Source of the DNA: a virus
Virus record (IMG/VR): IMGVR_UViG_3300042090_000643
Location: 1 to 55,440 of that record
Length of the DNA: 55,440 nucleotides
Direction: 5' to 3' (one strand)
Positions 23,605 to 53,110 of this stretch are shown here, one piece after another (position 1 is the stretch's first letter; each line of letters starts with the position of its first letter). The notes under the pieces were generated by a model that was not told the origin of the DNA, searched no databases, and saw only the letters and a program-made list of their open reading frames with translations. The position numbers were made by a program, and so were the translations under genes.

Positions 23605-23866
23605 GTATCAGGCGATAGGATAGCGCAGGACGACCAGAGCGGTCTGAAATTCGAAGACGGTAGGCATGGAAACGTGCCGGAAGATCGAACAGAAGCGCAG
23701 GACGACCAGAGCGGGTCGCCAACCAATTGAAATGCGTGTAGTGGTGATGGTCACATCTGGTCACCAGTGTCTGGGCTATCATCCTCCTACACGCGCGAAA
23801 TCTTTTTGCTTGTAGGCAAAAATAGTGGTTTACGGAGAGCAATTCCGTAGTATTATGGAGATTGTC
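23605..23866 (+). ncRNA. structured 5' region of the tRNA operon
   Basis: No gene is seen here. It has a 21-bp perfect direct repeat (23622-23642 and 23694-23714), a hairpin GGCATG-GAAA-CGTGCC with a GNRA tetraloop near 23664-23679, a long hairpin closed by GCGTGTAG/CTACACGC (23734-23794) followed by a T-run, a TTTTTGC/GCAAAAA hairpin, and TACGGA/TCCGTA at 23831-23849 just before the leader's ribosome site. Whether this is one folded RNA or several regulatory hairpins cannot be settled by eye. Confidence 0.45.
23622..23714. repeat. 21-bp direct repeat pair
   Basis: Two identical 21-bp copies (AGCGCAGGACGACCAGAG followed by CGG), starting at 23622 and 23694, 72 bp apart, in the non-coding region before tRNA cluster 1. 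Confidence 0.9.
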
Positions 23867-23971
23867 ATGAAGAGCATGGTTGAATTCGTCGGAGCAGTTG
23901 CAACGGTCGTCGCCGCTGAAGCAGCGGAGGGCGTGGATACCGGGCATCTGTCCTTGGTGCGAATCAGCTAA
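23867..23971 (+). CDS. leader peptide rich in GNN codons, upstream of tRNA cluster 1
   Basis: 34 codons, ATG behind GGAG (spacing six), stop TAA at 23969. Codons 5-26 hold 19 GNN codons out of 22: six Val, six Ala, three Glu, three Gly, one Asp; the other three are Phe, Thr, Thr. These are the five amino acids of the ten tRNAs that follow. The codons just after the run (CTG TCC TTG G, 23948-23957) form the 5' arm of a hairpin competing with the intrinsic terminator before the first tRNA. Both features match leader peptides of amino-acid biosynthetic operons such as trp and his. The peptide itself probably has no function. It could instead be an ordinary small Ala/Val-rich protein, but the downstream alternative hairpins make that less likely. 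Confidence 0.65.
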   Translation: MKSMVEFVGAVATVVAAEAAEGVDTGHLSLVRIS

Positions 23972-23999
23972 ACTTCAGCGAGATTCAAGCCAAGGACAG
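23948..23999 (+). promoter_or_regulatory. antiterminator hairpin of the tRNA operon attenuator
   Basis: CTGTCCTTGG (23948-23957) pairs perfectly with CCAAGGACAG (23990-23999). Inside this, GAATC (23961-23965) pairs with GATTC (23982-23986) and GCT (23967-23969) with AGC (23977-23979). The 3' arm uses eight of the ten bases of the 5' arm of the terminator, so the two structures exclude each other. Confidence 0.75.
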
Positions 24000-24025
24000 C
24001 CCAAGCGGCTGTCCTTTTCGTTTTT
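23992..24025 (+). terminator. intrinsic terminator directly before tRNA-Val
   Basis: AAGGACAGCC (23992-24001), loop CAAGC, GGCTGTCCTT (24007-24016), then TTCGTTTTT. The last T touches the first base of tRNA-Val. Normal formation would silence the tRNA genes, so it only makes sense as a controlled attenuator. Confidence 0.85.
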
Positions 24026-24101
24026 GCGGAATTAACTCAGTTGGTAGAGTGCTGCCCTTACAAGACAGATGTCACTGGTTCGAGCCCAGTATTCCGCACC
24101 A
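24026..24101 (+). tRNA. tRNA-Val(TAC)
   Basis: Acceptor GCGGAAT/ATTCCGC, discriminator A, encoded CCA. Anticodon loop CTTACAA gives TAC (codon GTA). One C-A mismatch in the anticodon stem. First tRNA of cluster 1, starting one base after the attenuator terminator. Confidence 0.93.
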
Positions 24102-24137
24102 ATTTGAACTATTGGATTCTTTGTAGAGGAATAGTCT

Positions 24138-24815
24138 ATGGAGGATTCAAGTTGTGAAACTTGTTTGGCGATTCATCTAGGAACCTATGGATCAGGAAGA
24201 TTCTGTTCTAGCAAGTGTGCTAGAGGATTCTCAACCAAAGCTAAACGGAAAGAGATTAACAAAACAGTTTCAGAGAAATTGAGGGGCACAAAGCAACCTC
24301 CAGGAAAGGAACGAAGCAAACTTCAGCAAGAGGTAACAAGAGTTCTCACTTCCGATATACGACAAAAGGCACTTGAGTATAGAAAACAATGTCGAGAAAT
24401 CGGAGCCTCAAGAGTTAGCAACTTTGACCTATTTGTTGTGGGTTGTATGCTTTACTGGGGAGAAGGGACAAAAAACAGAAGTGAATTCATTTTTTCAAAT
24501 TCAGATCCTCAAATGATCTCCTTGTACTTGAGATTTTTAAGAGAAAGTATGAAGATTCAGGATTCTGAAATTGAGTTAGAGGTTAGAGGTTATTTGAATT
24601 GCAGCAAATCTCCTCAGGAGGTTGAAGAATTTTGGAGTTCTTTGTCTGGAATCTCCGTAGTTGGTACCTATGAGCTAGGGACAGAAAGAAAGAGGGATAA
24701 ACTTCTTTACGGAACAGCCCATGTTTTTGTGAAAAGGGGTCAGAAGTATGTTCAGCAAGTATATGGAGCTATCGAAAAGATAGCAGGTATCAAGGATTCA
24801 AGAAAGTGGACGTGA
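24138..24815 (+). CDS. homing-endonuclease-like mobile gene (LAGLIDADG-type, with zinc finger)
   Basis: 225 residues; ATG behind GTAGAGGAA. The N-terminus is a zinc finger (CETC, then GSGRFCSSKC, then ARGFSTKAKR) of the type attached to phage homing enzymes. Residues ~100-140 (FVVGCMLYWGEGTKNRSEFIFSNSD) look like a degenerate LAGLIDADG helix followed by the usual strand. AT-rich, with many AGA and AAA codons unlike the surrounding genes. It sits between tRNA-Val and tRNA-Gly, which marks the tRNA array as the insertion target. Catalytic competence is unknown; the family assignment is moderate. Confidence 0.6.
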   Translation: MEDSSCETCLAIHLGTYGSGRFCSSKCARGFSTKAKRKEINKTVSEKLRGTKQPPGKERSKLQQEVTRVLTSDIRQKALEYRKQCREIGASRVSNFDLFVVGCMLYWGEGTKNRSEFIFSNSDPQMISLYLRFLRESMKIQDSEIELEVRGYLNCSKSPQEVEEFWSSLSGISVVGTYELGTERKRDKLLYGTAHVFVKRGQKYVQQVYGAIEKIAGIKDSRKWT

Positions 24816-24913
24816 GTCGATGAGTCACTTTTCTCGCTCCACCATTAGCCCACTCGCTGGGTGGTCTAATGGGGGCGCATATGGTGGTTCGATCTGAACT
24901 CATTCACGTCAAT

Positions 24914-24989
24914 GCGGGAGTAGCTCAGTTGGTAGAGCGCGACCTTGCCAAGGTCGAAGTCGCCGGTCCGAGTCCGGTCTTCCGCTCCA
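24914..24989 (+). tRNA. tRNA-Gly(GCC)
   Basis: Acceptor GCGGGAG/CTTCCGC with one G-T pair, discriminator T, encoded CCA. Anticodon stem CGACC/GGTCG, loop TTGCCAA gives GCC (codons GGC/GGT). A strong hairpin, CCATTAG pairing with CTAATGG, lies upstream near 24843-24873. Confidence 0.94.
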
Positions 24990-25043
24990 AGATTTTGAGA
25001 TTTGATTGACTGACTTCACGAATCTAGACAGAGGGGATAGATC

Positions 25044-25268
25044 ATGAATTCAGAAAATCACGAGATCAGAGAAATCCTAGAGGTACTTGTTGAAATCAGG
25101 AAGCAAGTCACTCATGGATTCGCAAAACTTGAAGCGCAGGTTGCAGAGATTCAGACGCAGTCTGCTCAAGAGTTCACGGAGGTTCACAAGGACCTCAATC
25201 TTCTGAGAACACGGTTGGTAGTTCCGGCTCTCATCAAGATCAAAGAGGTTCACAGTAAGATCGCATGA
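25044..25268 (+). CDS. small coiled-coil protein inside tRNA cluster
   Basis: 74 residues; ATG behind AGAGGGG. Heptad-like pattern of hydrophobic and charged residues over nearly the whole length (IREILEVLVEIRKQV, LEAQVAEIQTQ, LNLLRTRLVV). The TGA stop is immediately followed by the first base of tRNA-Gly(TCC), so transcript processing must release the tRNA from the end of the message. No family recognised. Confidence 0.65.
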   Translation: MNSENHEIREILEVLVEIRKQVTHGFAKLEAQVAEIQTQSAQEFTEVHKDLNLLRTRLVVPALIKIKEVHSKIA

Positions 25269-25343
25269 GCGGGTGTAACTCAGTGGTAGAGTGTCAGCCT
25301 TCCAAGCTGTTCGTCAGGGGTTCGAATCCCCTCATCCGCTCCA
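25269..25343 (+). tRNA. tRNA-Gly(TCC)
   Basis: Acceptor GCGGGTG/CATCCGC with one G-T pair, discriminator T, encoded CCA. Loop CTTCCAA gives TCC (codon GGA, and GGG by wobble). Starts at the base after the stop codon of the coiled-coil gene. Confidence 0.93.
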
Positions 25344-25360
25344 AAGTTTTGTGGTAATGT

Positions 25361-25435
25361 TGGCGGTTATTTCAGTGGTAGAAGACTTCCTTGACACGGA
25401 AGGAGTCGCTGGTTCAAATCCAGTACCGCCAACCA
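25361..25435 (+). tRNA. tRNA-Val(GAC)
   Basis: Acceptor TGGCGGT/ACCGCCA, discriminator A, encoded CCA. Anticodon stem CTTCC/GGAAG, loop TTGACAC gives GAC (codons GTC/GTT). Confidence 0.93.
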
Positions 25436-25448
25436 GGTTTTACAATGC

Positions 25449-25525
25449 GGGGTCGTAGCTCAGCTGGTCAGAGTGCTTGCCTGTCACGCAAGAAGTCGCG
25501 AGTTCAAGTCTCGTCGGCCCCGCCA
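25449..25525 (+). tRNA. tRNA-Asp(GTC)
   Basis: Acceptor GGGGTCG/CGGCCCC, discriminator G, encoded CCA. Anticodon stem CTTGC/GCAAG, loop CTGTCAC gives GTC (codons GAC/GAT). Confidence 0.94.
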
Positions 25526-25537
25526 ACTTTTTGATAT

Positions 25538-25626
25538 GCGGGCTTCCGCAAGGAAGCATGTCTGGTTATCTGTTCCTGCAGGATGGAGCCAGTTCATGAA
25601 ACAGGGAAACCTGGAAACCCGCTCCA
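25538..25626 (+). ncRNA. tRNA-like branched RNA with GNRA loops, candidate
   Basis: Closed by GCGGG (25538-25542) and CCCGC (25618-25622), then T and CCA, the same 3' end as the tRNA-Gly genes. Three arms follow inside: CTTCC-GCAA-GGAAG (5 bp, GNRA loop), CTGG...CCAG (25562-25565/25589-25592) with a small TCC-TGCA-GGA top, and CAGG-GAAA-CCTG (GNRA loop). No TTCRA loop and no anticodon loop can be placed, so it is not a normal tRNA. It may be a decayed tRNA, a tRNA mimic or chance. Confidence 0.35.
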
Positions 25627-25722
25627 AGATTGAGTATGGAGAGAACCATGAAGGAACATTTGGATGCCGATTTGAATAGCGTACACAAGAGGCTTGCGGC
25701 ACAGTGGTATCTTCGTGATAGT

Positions 25723-25798
25723 GGGGGTGTAGCTCAGTTGGGAGAGCGCGACGCTGGCAGCGTTGAGGTCGCAGGTTCGAACCCTGTCATCTCCACCA
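25723..25798 (+). tRNA. tRNA-Ala(GGC)
   Basis: Acceptor GGGGGTG/CATCTCC with two G-T pairs, discriminator A, encoded CCA. Loop CTGGCAG gives GGC (codons GCC/GCT). Very similar in acceptor and D arm to the two Ala tRNAs downstream, suggesting local duplication. Confidence 0.94.
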
Positions 25799-25904
25799 AG
25801 ACTTCAAGGCAGTATGAACCAGAGGGACGAGATCAGAGCTTGGCTCGACTCGACGCCTCTCATGCTGATGAATTTATCCGTCAGGCGCTGTTGTCTGACA
25901 TCGT

Positions 25905-25980
25905 GGGGGCATAGCTCAGTTGGGAGAGCGCCTGCTTTGCAAGCAAGAGGTCGGGGGTTCGATCCCCTCTGTCTCCACCA
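25905..25980 (+). tRNA. tRNA-Ala(TGC)
   Basis: Acceptor GGGGGCA/TGTCTCC with two G-T pairs, discriminator A, encoded CCA. Loop TTTGCAA gives TGC (codon GCA). Anticodon stem has one C-A mismatch. Confidence 0.94.
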
Positions 25981-26000
25981 AAGTTTTGTAGCAGTTTTTC

Positions 26001-26076
26001 GGGGGTATAGCTCAGTTGGGAGAGCGCCGCACTCGCACTGCGGAGGCCACTGGTTCGACTCCAGTTATCTCCACCA
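26001..26076 (+). tRNA. tRNA-Ala(CGC)
   Basis: Acceptor GGGGGTA/TATCTCC, discriminator A, encoded CCA. Anticodon stem CCGCA/TGCGG, loop CTCGCAC gives CGC (codon GCG). Confidence 0.94.
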
Positions 26077-26085
26077 AGTTTTTAT

Positions 26086-26159
26086 GGCGTGTTCGTCTAG
26101 TGGTCAAGGACATCTGCCTTTCACGCAGGGAATCATGGGTTCAAATCCCATACACGCTA
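26086..26159 (+). tRNA. tRNA-Glu(TTC)
   Basis: Acceptor GGCGTGT/ACACGCT (first pair G-T), discriminator A; unlike the other tRNAs of the cluster the next bases are CAT, so CCA is not encoded. D arm TCGTCTAG and loop CTTTCAC (anticodon TTC, codon GAA) are typical Glu features. Confidence 0.9.
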
Positions 26160-26202
26160 CATTCGTGACTTCCTAGTTCATAGTAGAGGACTAGGAGGGT
26201 TC

Positions 26203-26853
26203 ATGACATACACAGTCTACAAGACTGTTAATCAGGTGAATGGCAAGTTCTACATCGGGGTTCACAAAACCAACAACCCGATGGATGAATACTTGGGAAG
26301 TGGAACCGTCATCCAGCTAGCCATTCAGAAGTATGGTGTGTTGAGTTTTGTTAAGGAAATCCTCTTCAAGTATGAAACTCAAGAAGAGGCCTGGGTCAAG
26401 GAAAACGAGTTGGTTGAACTCCACAGGGCAGACCCTCTTTGCTACAATCTGAGGAAGGGAGGTTCTGGTGGTTATGACTACATAAACTCCATAGGAAGAA
26501 ACACAGTTGGAGTTTCCAAGGGTGGGATTGCTGCCAAATTGAAAAGATCAAACGATCCCAAAGTGATGACTAGATTCAAACAAGTCACACATCAAGGTCG
26601 AAAGCAAAGTCAGGCATTTCAAAGTCACTGTGCTAAGAGATCTGAATTGGGAGCAGTTAAGTGGAGAGGGCAACATCACTCTATAGAGAGTAGAAGCCTG
26701 ATGAGTAGCCAAACAGCAGGGTCTAGAAACTCTCAATTTGGCACTTGTTGGATCAGCCTGAGAGGAGTTGAAAGAAAGATTAAAGTGGAGCATCTACCCG
26801 ACTATCTAAAACTTGGATGGTTGAAAGGTAGAAAATACGACCCTGTCCTCTAG
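26203..26853 (+). CDS. GIY-YIG homing endonuclease
   Basis: 216 residues; ATG behind AGGAGGG. GIY-YIG signature: YTVYKTVNQVNGKFYIGVHK at residues 2-22 (Tyr...YIG), then a LGSG segment and E50s-region helix, catalytic Glu probably in KENELVELH. The C-terminal half is a Lys/Arg/Ser-rich DNA-binding region with NUMOD3-like KGGIAAK and NSQFGTCW pieces. AT-rich relative to its neighbours. It lies between tRNA-Glu(TTC) and tRNA-Glu(CTC), and its last five codons lie inside the latter gene. Confidence 0.85.
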   Translation: MTYTVYKTVNQVNGKFYIGVHKTNNPMDEYLGSGTVIQLAIQKYGVLSFVKEILFKYETQEEAWVKENELVELHRADPLCYNLRKGGSGGYDYINSIGRNTVGVSKGGIAAKLKRSNDPKVMTRFKQVTHQGRKQSQAFQSHCAKRSELGAVKWRGQHHSIESRSLMSSQTAGSRNSQFGTCWISLRGVERKIKVEHLPDYLKLGWLKGRKYDPVL

Positions 26854-26915
26854 ATGGCCTAGGAGACTGGCCTCTCAAGCCGGGAACGTGGGTTCAAATC
26901 CCATCAGGGTCGCCA
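26839..26915 (+). tRNA. tRNA-Glu(CTC)
   Basis: Acceptor GACCCTG/CAGGGTC, discriminator G, encoded CCA. D arm TCCTCTAG, anticodon stem CTGGC/GCCGG, loop CTCTCAA gives CTC (codon GAG). The stop codon TAG of the GIY-YIG gene falls in its D arm at 26851-26853. Last tRNA of cluster 1. Confidence 0.92.
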
Positions 26916-51420: not shown

Positions 51421-51480
51421 ATGAGAATGCGACCAACATTTCGATTTCGACCGCAACCTGCAAGGCTCGCGGAGGGTTAA
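51421..51480 (+). CDS. possible leader peptide upstream of tRNA cluster 2
   Basis: 19 residues, MRMRPTFRFRPQPARLAEG. It holds three Pro codons (CCA, CCG, CCT), two Phe (TTT), one Gln (CAA) and five Arg. The tRNA cluster that follows encodes three tRNA-Pro, one tRNA-Phe and a decayed tRNA-Gln; no tRNA-Arg is seen. Short hairpins follow (TCTCC-TCG-GGAGA, and CTCCT pairing with AGGAG), without a clear T-run. An endonuclease gene on the other strand has been placed between this ORF and the tRNAs. Ribosome site weak. Confidence 0.35.
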   Translation: MRMRPTFRFRPQPARLAEG

Positions 51481-51538
51481 GTCCTAAAGACTCCTCTCCT
51501 CGGGAGACGCCAGTTGCTCTAGCAGGAGGGTGAGAGAT

Positions 51539-52054
51539 CTATTTCACCAAATCCAATACCTTGGCAACTTGCGTTTGTGTTCTAGCTTTCTGGTCTGGGG
51601 ATTTTACACCAAACCAAGGAAGACGCATCACGTGATAACCGGCTGAAATGAGTGCGTCGTCGCGAAATTTGTCCTTTTCCATACGATCTGGTAGGCAATG
51701 CTGAGAACCATCAATTTCCAGATCTAACCTGATTTCCGGGAAGTAGAAGTCTAGGAACAGACAATTACCATGGTTAGGAATGCCCAGGGTTGATTTGTTC
51801 ACTCGAAATTCTCTCACGAAGTTGAGGTTGTGCTGAGTGAGAACGTCGTCCCAGTACCTTTCTGCGAACGACATAACCAAACGAGGACGTGTACGCCATC
51901 CTCGATGAAGAGATTGCTTCATACGTTCAGAAACACTCGTTCTGTACTCTTCGTTAGTCCTGTAGAACTGAACTTTGCAAGCGACAGAGCAGAACTTTCT
52001 TCTAGAATATCTGGCCTCATACGGTTTTCGGCAAGTCGTACAGGTTTTGACCAT
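51539..52054 (-). CDS. EDxHD/Vsr-like homing endonuclease with zinc finger
   Basis: 171 residues from the ATG at 52054; longer forms would run into tRNA-Pro. Zinc finger CTTCRKPYEARYSRRKFCSVACK at the N-terminus in two pairs. The C-terminal half, LFLDFYFPEIRLDLEIDGSQH, then DKFRDDALISAGYHVMRLPW, is the Vsr/DUF559-type nuclease fold in which E/D-x-D and the following His/Asp bind metal. AT-rich. Convergent with the tRNA array. Free-standing enzymes of this kind occur in phages as homing endonucleases. Confidence 0.75.
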   Translation of the reverse strand: MVKTCTTCRKPYEARYSRRKFCSVACKVQFYRTNEEYRTSVSERMKQSLHRGWRTRPRLVMSFAERYWDDVLTQHNLNFVREFRVNKSTLGIPNHGNCLFLDFYFPEIRLDLEIDGSQHCLPDRMEKDKFRDDALISAGYHVMRLPWFGVKSPDQKARTQTQVAKVLDLVK

Positions 52055-52074
52055 GTGAATGAATACTGGTATGT

Positions 52075-52151
52075 CGGAGATTAGCGCAGCCTGGTAGCGC
52101 ACACCGTTCGGGACGGTGGGGTCATCAGTTCAAATCTGATATCTCCGACCA
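52075..52151 (+). tRNA. tRNA-Pro(CGG)
   Basis: Acceptor CGGAGAT/ATCTCCG, discriminator A, encoded CCA. Anticodon stem CACCG/CGGTG, loop TTCGGGA gives CGG (codon CCG). D arm GCGCAGCCTGG is typical of Pro. First tRNA of cluster 2. Confidence 0.94.
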
Positions 52152-52166
52152 ATTTTTGCTGTATGT

Positions 52167-52241
52167 GGACTCGTAGCTCAGTGGTAGAGCGCAACCCTGA
52201 AGAGGTTGGCGTCGGCGGTTCAATCCCGTTCGAGTCCACCA
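52167..52241 (+). tRNA. tRNA-Phe(GAA)
   Basis: Acceptor GGACTCG/CGAGTCC, discriminator A, encoded CCA. Anticodon stem CAACC/GGTTG, loop CTGAAGA gives GAA (codons TTC/TTT). Confidence 0.93.
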
Positions 52242-52261
52242 AAGTTTGAAGAGCGTAGTAA

Positions 52262-52329
52262 GCCGCACTAGGATGTGACTTGAAGAGCCAACCAGCCTCA
52301 AGTTGACAAGAGACAACATCGGACGCGGC
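52262..52329 (+). other. long imperfect hairpin between tRNA genes
   Basis: Nested pairs GCCGC/GCGGC, GATGT/ACATC and ACTTGA/TCAAGT enclose a 14-base loop. No T-run or tRNA signature. Possibly a processing or decay element, or a decayed tRNA. Confidence 0.35.
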
Positions 52330-52338
52330 ACAGTTTGT

Positions 52339-52415
52339 CGGGATATGGCTCAGCCTGGTAGAGCGCACCCTTGGGGTGGGTGAGGTCGCTGGTTCGAATC
52401 CAGTTATCCCGACCA
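52339..52415 (+). tRNA. tRNA-Pro(GGG)
   Basis: Acceptor CGGGATA/TATCCCG, discriminator A, encoded CCA. Anticodon stem CACCC/GGGTG, loop TTGGGGT gives GGG (codons CCC/CCT). Confidence 0.93.
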
Positions 52416-52514
52416 AAGTTTGCGATGGTGCAATAGAGCCTGAGATCTTGCCGACGGGTGAGAACAGAGGGCAGCAGGTAGAATGTCTGGACTTTGTGGC
52501 TATAGACGCATCGC

Positions 52515-52596
52515 CTGGGCAGGATTCCGTAAGCGGTCAGCACGCCGTCCATTGAGGACGGAAACGCCGGTCAAATCCGGCACGCAGAAAACCTTA
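52515..52596 (+). pseudogene. decayed tRNA-Gln(TTG)-like sequence
   Basis: D-loop AAGCGGTCA, anticodon-type hairpin CCGTC-CATTGAG-GACGG and T-type hairpin GCCGG-TCAAAT-CCGGC follow each other in tRNA order. The loop would read TTG but has A instead of T at position 33, the T loop is one base short, and no acceptor pairing is found. Resembles tRNA-Gln more than any other. Not a working tRNA as it stands. Confidence 0.45.
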
Positions 52597-52632
52597 TTGT
52601 AGATTATTGTAAGATGTTGTTGCTGTAAATGT

Positions 52633-52709
52633 CGGGGTGTAGCGCAGCCTGGTAGCGCATCTGCTTTGGGAGCAGAGGGTCGGGGGTTCAACTCCCTCCA
52701 CCCCGACCA
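52633..52709 (+). tRNA. tRNA-Pro(TGG)
   Basis: Acceptor CGGGGTG/CACCCCG, discriminator A, encoded CCA. Anticodon stem TCTGC/GCAGA, loop TTTGGGA gives TGG (codon CCA). With CGG and GGG it completes the Pro box. Confidence 0.94.
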
Positions 52710-53110
52710 AAATTACTTTCTAGCCACCTTTACTTTTCTGAATATTCAGCGTATCGATAGTCCAGAGGCAGCCCGGTGGGTTGCCCACAGTTTGCACACG
52801 AGCCGTTGGATTGGATTATCTACCTAACTGTGGCGGTCATTGACTGTCGTTCTCCTGAGTATTTCCATCTTTCGGGATGCTAGCTCAAGAGTACTTTTAC
52901 AGTGTCCAACAATTTTCCAGTTCGCTCTTCGTTCATGTGCAGAAAGTTTTGTACGAGCCGTTAGATTTGGGTTATCTTTGGTTCGACCCCAAACTGTCCG
53001 CAAGGATAGTTGCTCAGCCAGGAAACTGGAGGGAGCGTCGTTATCCCAGTCGCCTTTTCGTTCGTACAATTTCCATTATTCCACTTGTTCACTCGGAGAA
53101 GGAGGGGTGC
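52710..53110 (+). other. non-coding stretch after tRNA cluster 2
   Basis: About 400 bases without a credible gene. It contains an imperfect direct repeat built on ACGAGCCGTT (about 52798-52821 and 52953-52977, both running into TTATCT), a hairpin-like GGCAGCCC/GGGTTGCC near 52768-52787 and no clear terminator. It may hold promoters for the gene at 53169 or be remains of tRNA-type sequence. Confidence 0.5.
52798..52977. repeat. imperfect 25-bp direct repeat pair
   Basis: ACGAGCCGTTGGATTGGATT then ATCT, and ACGAGCCGTTAGATTTGGGT then TATCT, 155 bp apart. Each is preceded by TTTGCAC or TTTTGT. Could be a pair of promoters or protein-binding sites. Confidence 0.65.

Follow-up and report, generated by a model that had tools for sequence, protein, structure and literature searches.

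What a short reading frame rich in GNN codons does immediately upstream of a phage tRNA operon in which every tRNA reads GNN codons is the question raised by a locus in a 55,440-base virus record (IMGVR_UViG_3300042090_000643), which was analysed over its whole length and is referred to below as the window. The window looks like DNA of a large tailed phage, its recognised proteins being helicases, a UvsX-like recombinase, and an exonuclease/SbcC-like protein. As the sequence-only reading of this DNA had claimed, a leader ORF of 34 codons plus stop (MKSMVEFVGAVATVVAAEAAEGVDTGHLSLVRIS; 23867–23971, plus strand) precedes operon 1 (Val/Ala/Gly/Asp/Glu) and contains a control region (codons 5–26, 23879–23944, plus strand) in which 19 of 22 codons are GNN (Val 6, Ala 6, Glu 3, Gly 3, Asp 1). 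On the same strand, arm 2 (CTGTCCTTGG; 23948–23957), the 5′ arm of the antiterminator, pairs perfectly over 10 bp with the 3′ arm, arm 3 (CCAAGGACAG; 23990–23999), and the fold adds stems of 5 bp and 3 bp. Arm 3 overlaps the 5′ arm of a 10-bp terminator (23992–24001), which pairs with arm 4 (24007–24016, plus strand) and is followed by a T-rich run that extends to 24025 and so reaches the first tRNA. Operon 1 (24026–26915, plus strand) comprises ten tRNA genes with ORFs in between, arranged in the order Val(TAC), Gly(GCC), Gly(TCC), Val(GAC), Asp(GTC), Ala(GGC), Ala(TGC), Ala(CGC), Glu(TTC), and Glu(CTC). The pairing, the shared arm, and the GNN-reading nature of all ten tRNAs had likewise been claimed before and were all found; in addition, each of the ten tRNAs reads at least one codon of the control region when wobble is allowed. 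The ribosome site, previously described as good, is present as GGAG at 23857–23860 but must be considered weaker. A promoter-like site (TTTACG-16-TATTAT, 9 of 12 matches; 23829–23856, plus strand) lies directly 5′ of the leader ORF, and its TATTAT −10 element at 23851–23856 would put the transcript start near 23863, possibly leaving only a very short 5′ UTR.

Attenuation is well known from textbooks, and its usual targets are genes for amino-acid biosynthesis, transport, or synthetases, although such targets are not part of the mechanism itself. The phage leaders share with attenuators of the trp, his, leu, thr, pheA, and pheST type (Yanofsky type) a short leader ORF that lies downstream of the promoter and ahead of the first structural gene, its control codons being cognate to the operon product; such an ORF was found in the window, and 46 leaders were found in 16 contigs. 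They also share the choice between pairing of arms 2:3 and arms 3:4, that is, a mutually exclusive antiterminator that follows the control codons and uses the 5′ arm of the terminator, as well as an intrinsic terminator before the first gene, a feature which is met by operon 1 of the window but not by the window's Pro/Phe operon. The usual targets are missing: in contrast to Yanofsky-type systems, the controlled genes here are tRNAs, themselves the molecules that are sensed. Further differences are that the phage leaders mostly cover 2–9 amino acids each, with codon choice at the level of isoacceptors, and that they occur in phages, where several class operons exist in parallel. T-box riboswitches resemble the phage leaders as well, being transcription attenuation systems that respond to tRNA charging. 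However, T-boxes bind uncharged tRNA directly and do not need translation, whereas the phage leaders control by the codons of an ORF. A T-box at the locus was rejected, as Rfam gave no T-box match that reached gathering score anywhere in the window and none within 23780–24026 even at E ≤ 10. Apart from tRNA, no Rfam family matched over the window, and no Rfam leader family matched in 23780–24026, where the only two matches were to non-leader families (E 6.9 and 7.4), far below gathering scores.

The reading favoured here, to which a probability of about 0.87 is given, is that each such tRNA operon of the phage clade is subject to ribosome-mediated transcription attenuation, in which a multi-amino-acid leader samples the operon's own tRNAs. 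RNA polymerase would start just 5′ of the leader, with a ribosome following. As long as the cognate charged tRNAs are all plentiful, the ribosome would reach the stop codon and cover arm 2, whereupon arms 3 and 4 would form the terminator and the tRNAs would not be made. Should any of the sampled tRNAs run short, the ribosome would stall within the control codons and leave arm 2 free to pair with arm 3, in which case no terminator would form and the tRNA operon would be transcribed. Such a shortage might be triggered by host tRNA cleavage or shut-off, by heavy late translation, or by starvation. Since the sensed molecules are the products of the operon, the circuit would constitute negative feedback on decoding capacity, divided by amino-acid class. 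The trp/his-type interpretation had already been put forward by the sequence-only reading and is supported by comparative tests, the basis being codon content, isoacceptor matching, the position of the control codons, alternative helices, and terminators as deduced from genome comparison. Leader translation, stalling, termination, read-through, the direction of control, and the trigger are all inferred, in the absence of expression, ribosome profiling, or termination data.

That the leader architecture of operon 1 is more than chance follows from two observations: its antiterminator duplex (−24.7 kcal/mol) is more stable than those of shuffled sequences (−14.8 ± 2.6 kcal/mol; z −3.9), and the architecture recurs, with other codon sets, in front of other tRNA operons. 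The 105-bp leader ORF itself is identical in two other contigs, where the first tRNA and its flanks differ. The nearest relative is a 187,058-base contig with a helicase 95% identical to that of the window; its GNN leader ORF is identical to the window's, while its first tRNA-Val and spacers differ. This contig carries four tRNA operons (Val/Ala/Gly/Asp/Glu; Leu/Tyr/Ser; Arg/Lys/Gln/His/Asn/Trp/Met; Pro/Phe), each with a leader of its own amino acids, exemplified by MRLLSLSSSPSLSSYYLSLPSGSVARWRGI for the Tyr-Leu(5)-Ser group and VKQIQTNSMRQHKQWQRNQHAIGGLDSGGSA for the Arg-Met-Trp-Gln-His-Asn-Lys group. The closest isolated phage by helicase (38% identity) is the Acidobacteriota phage Tunturi_5 of Tunturiibacter (PP885688.1; 308,711 bases). 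Its tRNAs form three groups that are partitioned differently from those of the window, which makes it an independent test of leader matching, and its three leaders differ to match: MKTLCLSSYCLSSSLSLSDGWDLRTGRDADMI precedes Leu-Cys-Leu-Leu-Tyr-Leu-Ser-Ser-Ser, MQHVSTFRFAVPATAGNPAGQQGTNACDTGGGKVVKW precedes a group with Gln, Gly, Thr, Pro, His, Ala, and Phe, and MKQILKQLGHDFDIRGKRGVVVDTWDITIRGERKWSDVRDMRVLRERPV precedes a group with Trp, Asp, Met, Lys, Val, Arg, Glu, Ile, and Gly. The first tRNA of the Gln/Gly/Thr/Pro/His/Ala/Phe group, to which ARAGORN assigned no identity, is read here as Asn (GTT). In the inspected stretch of the Tunturi_5 record, nothing is annotated where the leader lies.

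A single-protein search with the helicase returned near-identical contigs only; a helicase alignment search led to 80 viral loci, and for the nearest of these the tRNA groups were mapped and their sequences retrieved. Leaders were sought by terminator-first and upstream-ORF scans before tRNA groups. The checks proposed by the sequence-only reading came out in its favour: leader ORFs recur before the tRNA arrays of related phages, codon content persists although the peptides drift in sequence, and both helices are kept with compensatory changes. The scans found leaders for the Leu/Tyr, Pro/Met/Phe, and Val/Ala/Gly/Asp/Glu/Cys operons of the clade as well as for Ile/Thr/Gln, Gln/Thr/Cys, and Arg/Lys/His/Asn/Gln/Trp operons. 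Cys codons track the Cys tRNA across three operon contexts, and in G015, where the basic and Pro/Met/Phe classes are fused in one operon, the leader has R, K, P, F, W, M, N, Q, and H. Most class operons in the clade come with a cognate leader of their own; the design is therefore wider than had been seen at first and is not special to GNN codons. The same scans found no leader for some operons (e.g., G004 locus L137 and G015 locus L193), and the cases of G006 and of the Pro-only operon of G004 are weak. No convincing leader was obtained by the same scan in phages with one mixed array (G014, G017, G024, XacN1, and CM1), nor, taking distant relatives and other tRNA-rich phages together (G014, G017, G019–G022, G024, XacN1, and CM1), was a convincing cognate leader seen; the trait is therefore not general to tRNA-rich phages. 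In a BLASTN comparison of the locus with phages, mainly tRNA genes were matched among the matches listed, and a pattern built from the promoter region common to two operons gave no match. In addition, tRNA genes with a CTA anticodon (amber suppressor type) were noticed in several relatives (L166, L176, L179, L182, L185, and L194), and scans of their groups for leaders with in-frame TAG returned none that was convincing.

The spatial order within the leaders accords with that of an attenuator. Cognate codons make up 66% of codons before arm 2 compared with 26% from arm 2 onward, and arm 2 ends 4–33 nt before the stop codon, close enough in most leaders to be covered wholly or partly by a ribosome on that codon. 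Promoter matches of at least 9/12 occur upstream of 26% of leaders versus 4% of random pieces. Measured against shuffles, the antiterminator reaches a mean z of −2.7 over 33 leaders, 25 of which lie below −1.5. Arms 2 and 3 of the GNN class show T-A/C-G exchanges at two antiterminator positions, the arm 2 homologue covaries in eight phages, and in G012 a matched one-base insertion is present in arms 2 and 3, with arm 4 following suit. In folding models with a ribosome placed at the stop codon, the terminator is predicted to form in 33 of the 34 leaders that possess one with a U-run. If the ribosome is instead placed on the final control codon, as when stalled, and arm 4 has yet to be transcribed, arm 3 finds an upstream partner in 26/34. 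After arm 4 has appeared, only 15/34 have the antiterminator as their minimum-energy fold, and kinetics, that is, the race between polymerase and ribosome, must therefore decide, as in trp.

A U-run terminator is present in 34 of the 46 leaders; for the remaining 12, mainly of the Pro/Met/Phe class, none was found by the scan used. The window itself provides an example. Its second leader ORF (MRMRPTFRFRPQPARLAEG; 51421–51480, plus strand), which contains three Pro and two Phe codons among the 18 codons following the start, belongs to operon 2 (52075–52709, plus strand; tRNA Pro(CGG), Phe(GAA), Pro(GGG), and Pro(TGG)) and is also present in the nearest relative (L038). The scan found no U-run terminator at this leader, and its terminator is not canonical. 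Pro/Met/Phe leaders (e.g., window 51421–51560, L160, L177, and L184) keep their cognate codons without a U-run terminator, and those of several phages keep a C-rich alternative hairpin without a clear T-run; several leaders lacking the U-run retain alternative hairpins and may use another output. A search with the Pro/Met/Phe leader pattern matched seven viral contigs, and the pattern was absent from the bacterial genomes searched. These twelve leaders lend some substance to the notion that leaders sense cognate tRNAs by stalling while the output, at least in the Pro/Met/Phe class, is not intrinsic termination but, for example, Rho access, RNA stability, or tRNA processing. As an account of the system this is improbable, though not to be neglected, given the U-run terminators of the majority, their clean folding with the ribosome at the stop in the models, and the covariation of arms 2 and 3.

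Control might also be reversed, with slow decoding lowering tRNA output, e.g., to shut off the operon in starvation, and no measurement of the direction of control contradicts this. Yet the order control codons, arm 2, stop codon frees arm 2 on stalling, as in trp and his, where slow decoding of control codons leads to read-through (PMC1183508), and arm 2 is likewise left free in the modelled stalled state; reversed control is hence regarded as very unlikely.

Evidence that the leaders are read for their codons comes from matching leaders to operons in the pooled set of 46 leaders from 16 phage contigs. Summed over all operons, 193 of 196 cognate amino acids are found in the operon's own leader, whereas non-cognate amino acids are present in 346 of 724 cases; the mean cognate fraction is 0.50 in the own leader versus 0.12 for operons with disjoint sets, and each of the 20 amino acids is commoner in a leader when the respective tRNA belongs to its operon. 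The true pairing of leaders and operons is the best of all permutations in 10/10 multi-operon genomes with the chosen leaders. The leaders were first picked by a score that uses codon content; the test in which every ORF of the region competes agrees, the true pairing again ranking first in 10/10 genomes. The product of the permutation ranks, 2.4e-12, is not a probability because the relatedness of the genomes is uncorrected, and for the same reason the pooled statistics overstate independence. For amino acids with at least two isoacceptors in the operon, a strictly read codon occurs in the leader for 251 of 273 isoacceptors, compared with 201 ± 6 after random replacement of synonymous codons according to genome usage, and none of 1000 draws reaches the observed value. 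Taken alone, five genome sets give p of about 0.004, 0.06, 0.002, 0.005, and <0.0002; the effect is borderline in Tunturi_5 and not significant in the window (11/12 vs 9.4). That synonymous codon choice samples isoacceptors points to decoding rather than to the peptide. This bears on the possibility that the leader ORFs are ordinary small protein genes before tRNA arrays whose peptides have a job of their own: the identity at the DNA level of some leaders between the window and its nearest relatives would be compatible with such genes, but the peptide varies freely from phage to phage and from one type of operon to another, with a composition that follows the tRNAs downstream, even in synonymous codons, which leaves this explanation with slightly less credit than reversed control. 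Mere compositional accident, i.e., GNN-rich short ORFs being common in coding-like sequence because any real reading frame has frequent GNN codons, can be dismissed for practical purposes, as leaders rich in Thr/Gln/Ile, Leu/Ser/Tyr, Pro/Met/Phe, or Arg/Lys/His/Trp match their own tRNAs and the within-genome permutations contradict chance composition.

Several further elements were noted in and around the tRNA arrays. The window contains ORFs between or beside tRNAs at 24138–24815, 26203–26853, and 51539–52102, the last of which matches DUF559; their position suggests homing-endonuclease-like insertions. An HNH endonuclease lies inside one tRNA operon of Tunturi_5. Upstream of the GNN promoter, at 23618–23720, lie two copies of GCGCAGGACGACCAGAGCGG about 75 bases apart; the stretch containing them is 91% conserved in the relative and may represent a structured RNA or a protein site. 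A 170-base stretch between two Pro tRNAs (52430–52600) is nearly identical in L038 and has no Rfam match. Candidate circularly permuted tRNA genes were encountered within or beside arrays (L039 3597–3691, L036 2006–2097, L191 6854–6943, and also L189 7465–7569), in which the anticodon/T arm and 3′ acceptor, often with CCA, come first and the 5′ acceptor and D arm follow a few bases later. ARAGORN accepts these candidates when rejoined in canonical order and not in native order, L039 most often as tRNA-Asp GTC; as rejoining tried hundreds of junctions, identities other than that of L039 are not settled. The L036 and L039 elements are flanked by inverted repeats (GCACGA/TCGTGC type), and no phage permuted tRNA stood out in a limited literature search. 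Two tandem elements of the window (52786–53085) both start with CGAGCCGTTRGATT and are flanked by inverted repeats (TTGTACGAGCC...CGTTCGTACAA for the second element). They resemble the permuted-tRNA elements seen in the relative; ARAGORN gave no match to the second after rejoining. In Tunturi_5, a tRNA splicing ligase gene (gp296; L051 9848–11029) resides inside the second tRNA operon with a tRNA nucleotidyltransferase gene nearby, and the two enzymes could serve split or permuted tRNAs.

Phage tRNAs have been proposed as an answer to host tRNA cleavage or depletion in infection (PMC10264068, PMC11555353). The arrays described here resemble those defence-countering arrays in that phage-borne tRNAs are able to replace host tRNAs; unlike the present work on leaders, the two studies treat which tRNAs escape or overcome nucleases, and the words "attenuation" and "leader" are absent from the text of PMC10264068. 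Tunturi_5 carries three operons of the leader-controlled type, and its paper, in the passages on tRNAs, reports 43 tRNA genes and processing enzymes without describing leaders (PMC11924767). Likewise, the tRNA passages of a large survey of bacterial attenuators contain no tRNA operon with a leader of its own codons (PMC2965389). The earlier statement that no tRNA operon under this kind of control had been described stands as far as the open-licence full texts searched go: no prior account of attenuation or leaders of tRNA genes was found in them, nor a described case in which attenuation controls tRNA genes via the codons those tRNAs read. What is new, as far as found, is the tRNA target, the multi-amino-acid leaders with isoacceptor resolution, and the system-wide partition in phages; the mechanism is classical.

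A group of very large soil phages appears to control each of its tRNA clusters by a "test message" written in the codons of its own tRNAs, which would make the leaders natural sensors of tRNA shortage. It is an evenly balanced question whether the whole amounts to a surveillance circuit, in which a near-whole tRNA repertoire is held in class operons, the leaders poll nearly every isoacceptor, and loss of a single host tRNA, e.g., to an anticodon nuclease, would switch on the operon supplying its replacement, a counter-defence that would be both induced and class-specific. As Tunturi_5 is isolated and its host cultured, the prediction is directly testable. The leaders suggest a reason for the grouping of tRNAs by amino-acid class in this clade, and they offer a testable answer to the question of why some phages carry near-complete tRNA sets and when they use them, namely that these would be used on demand, when decoding fails.
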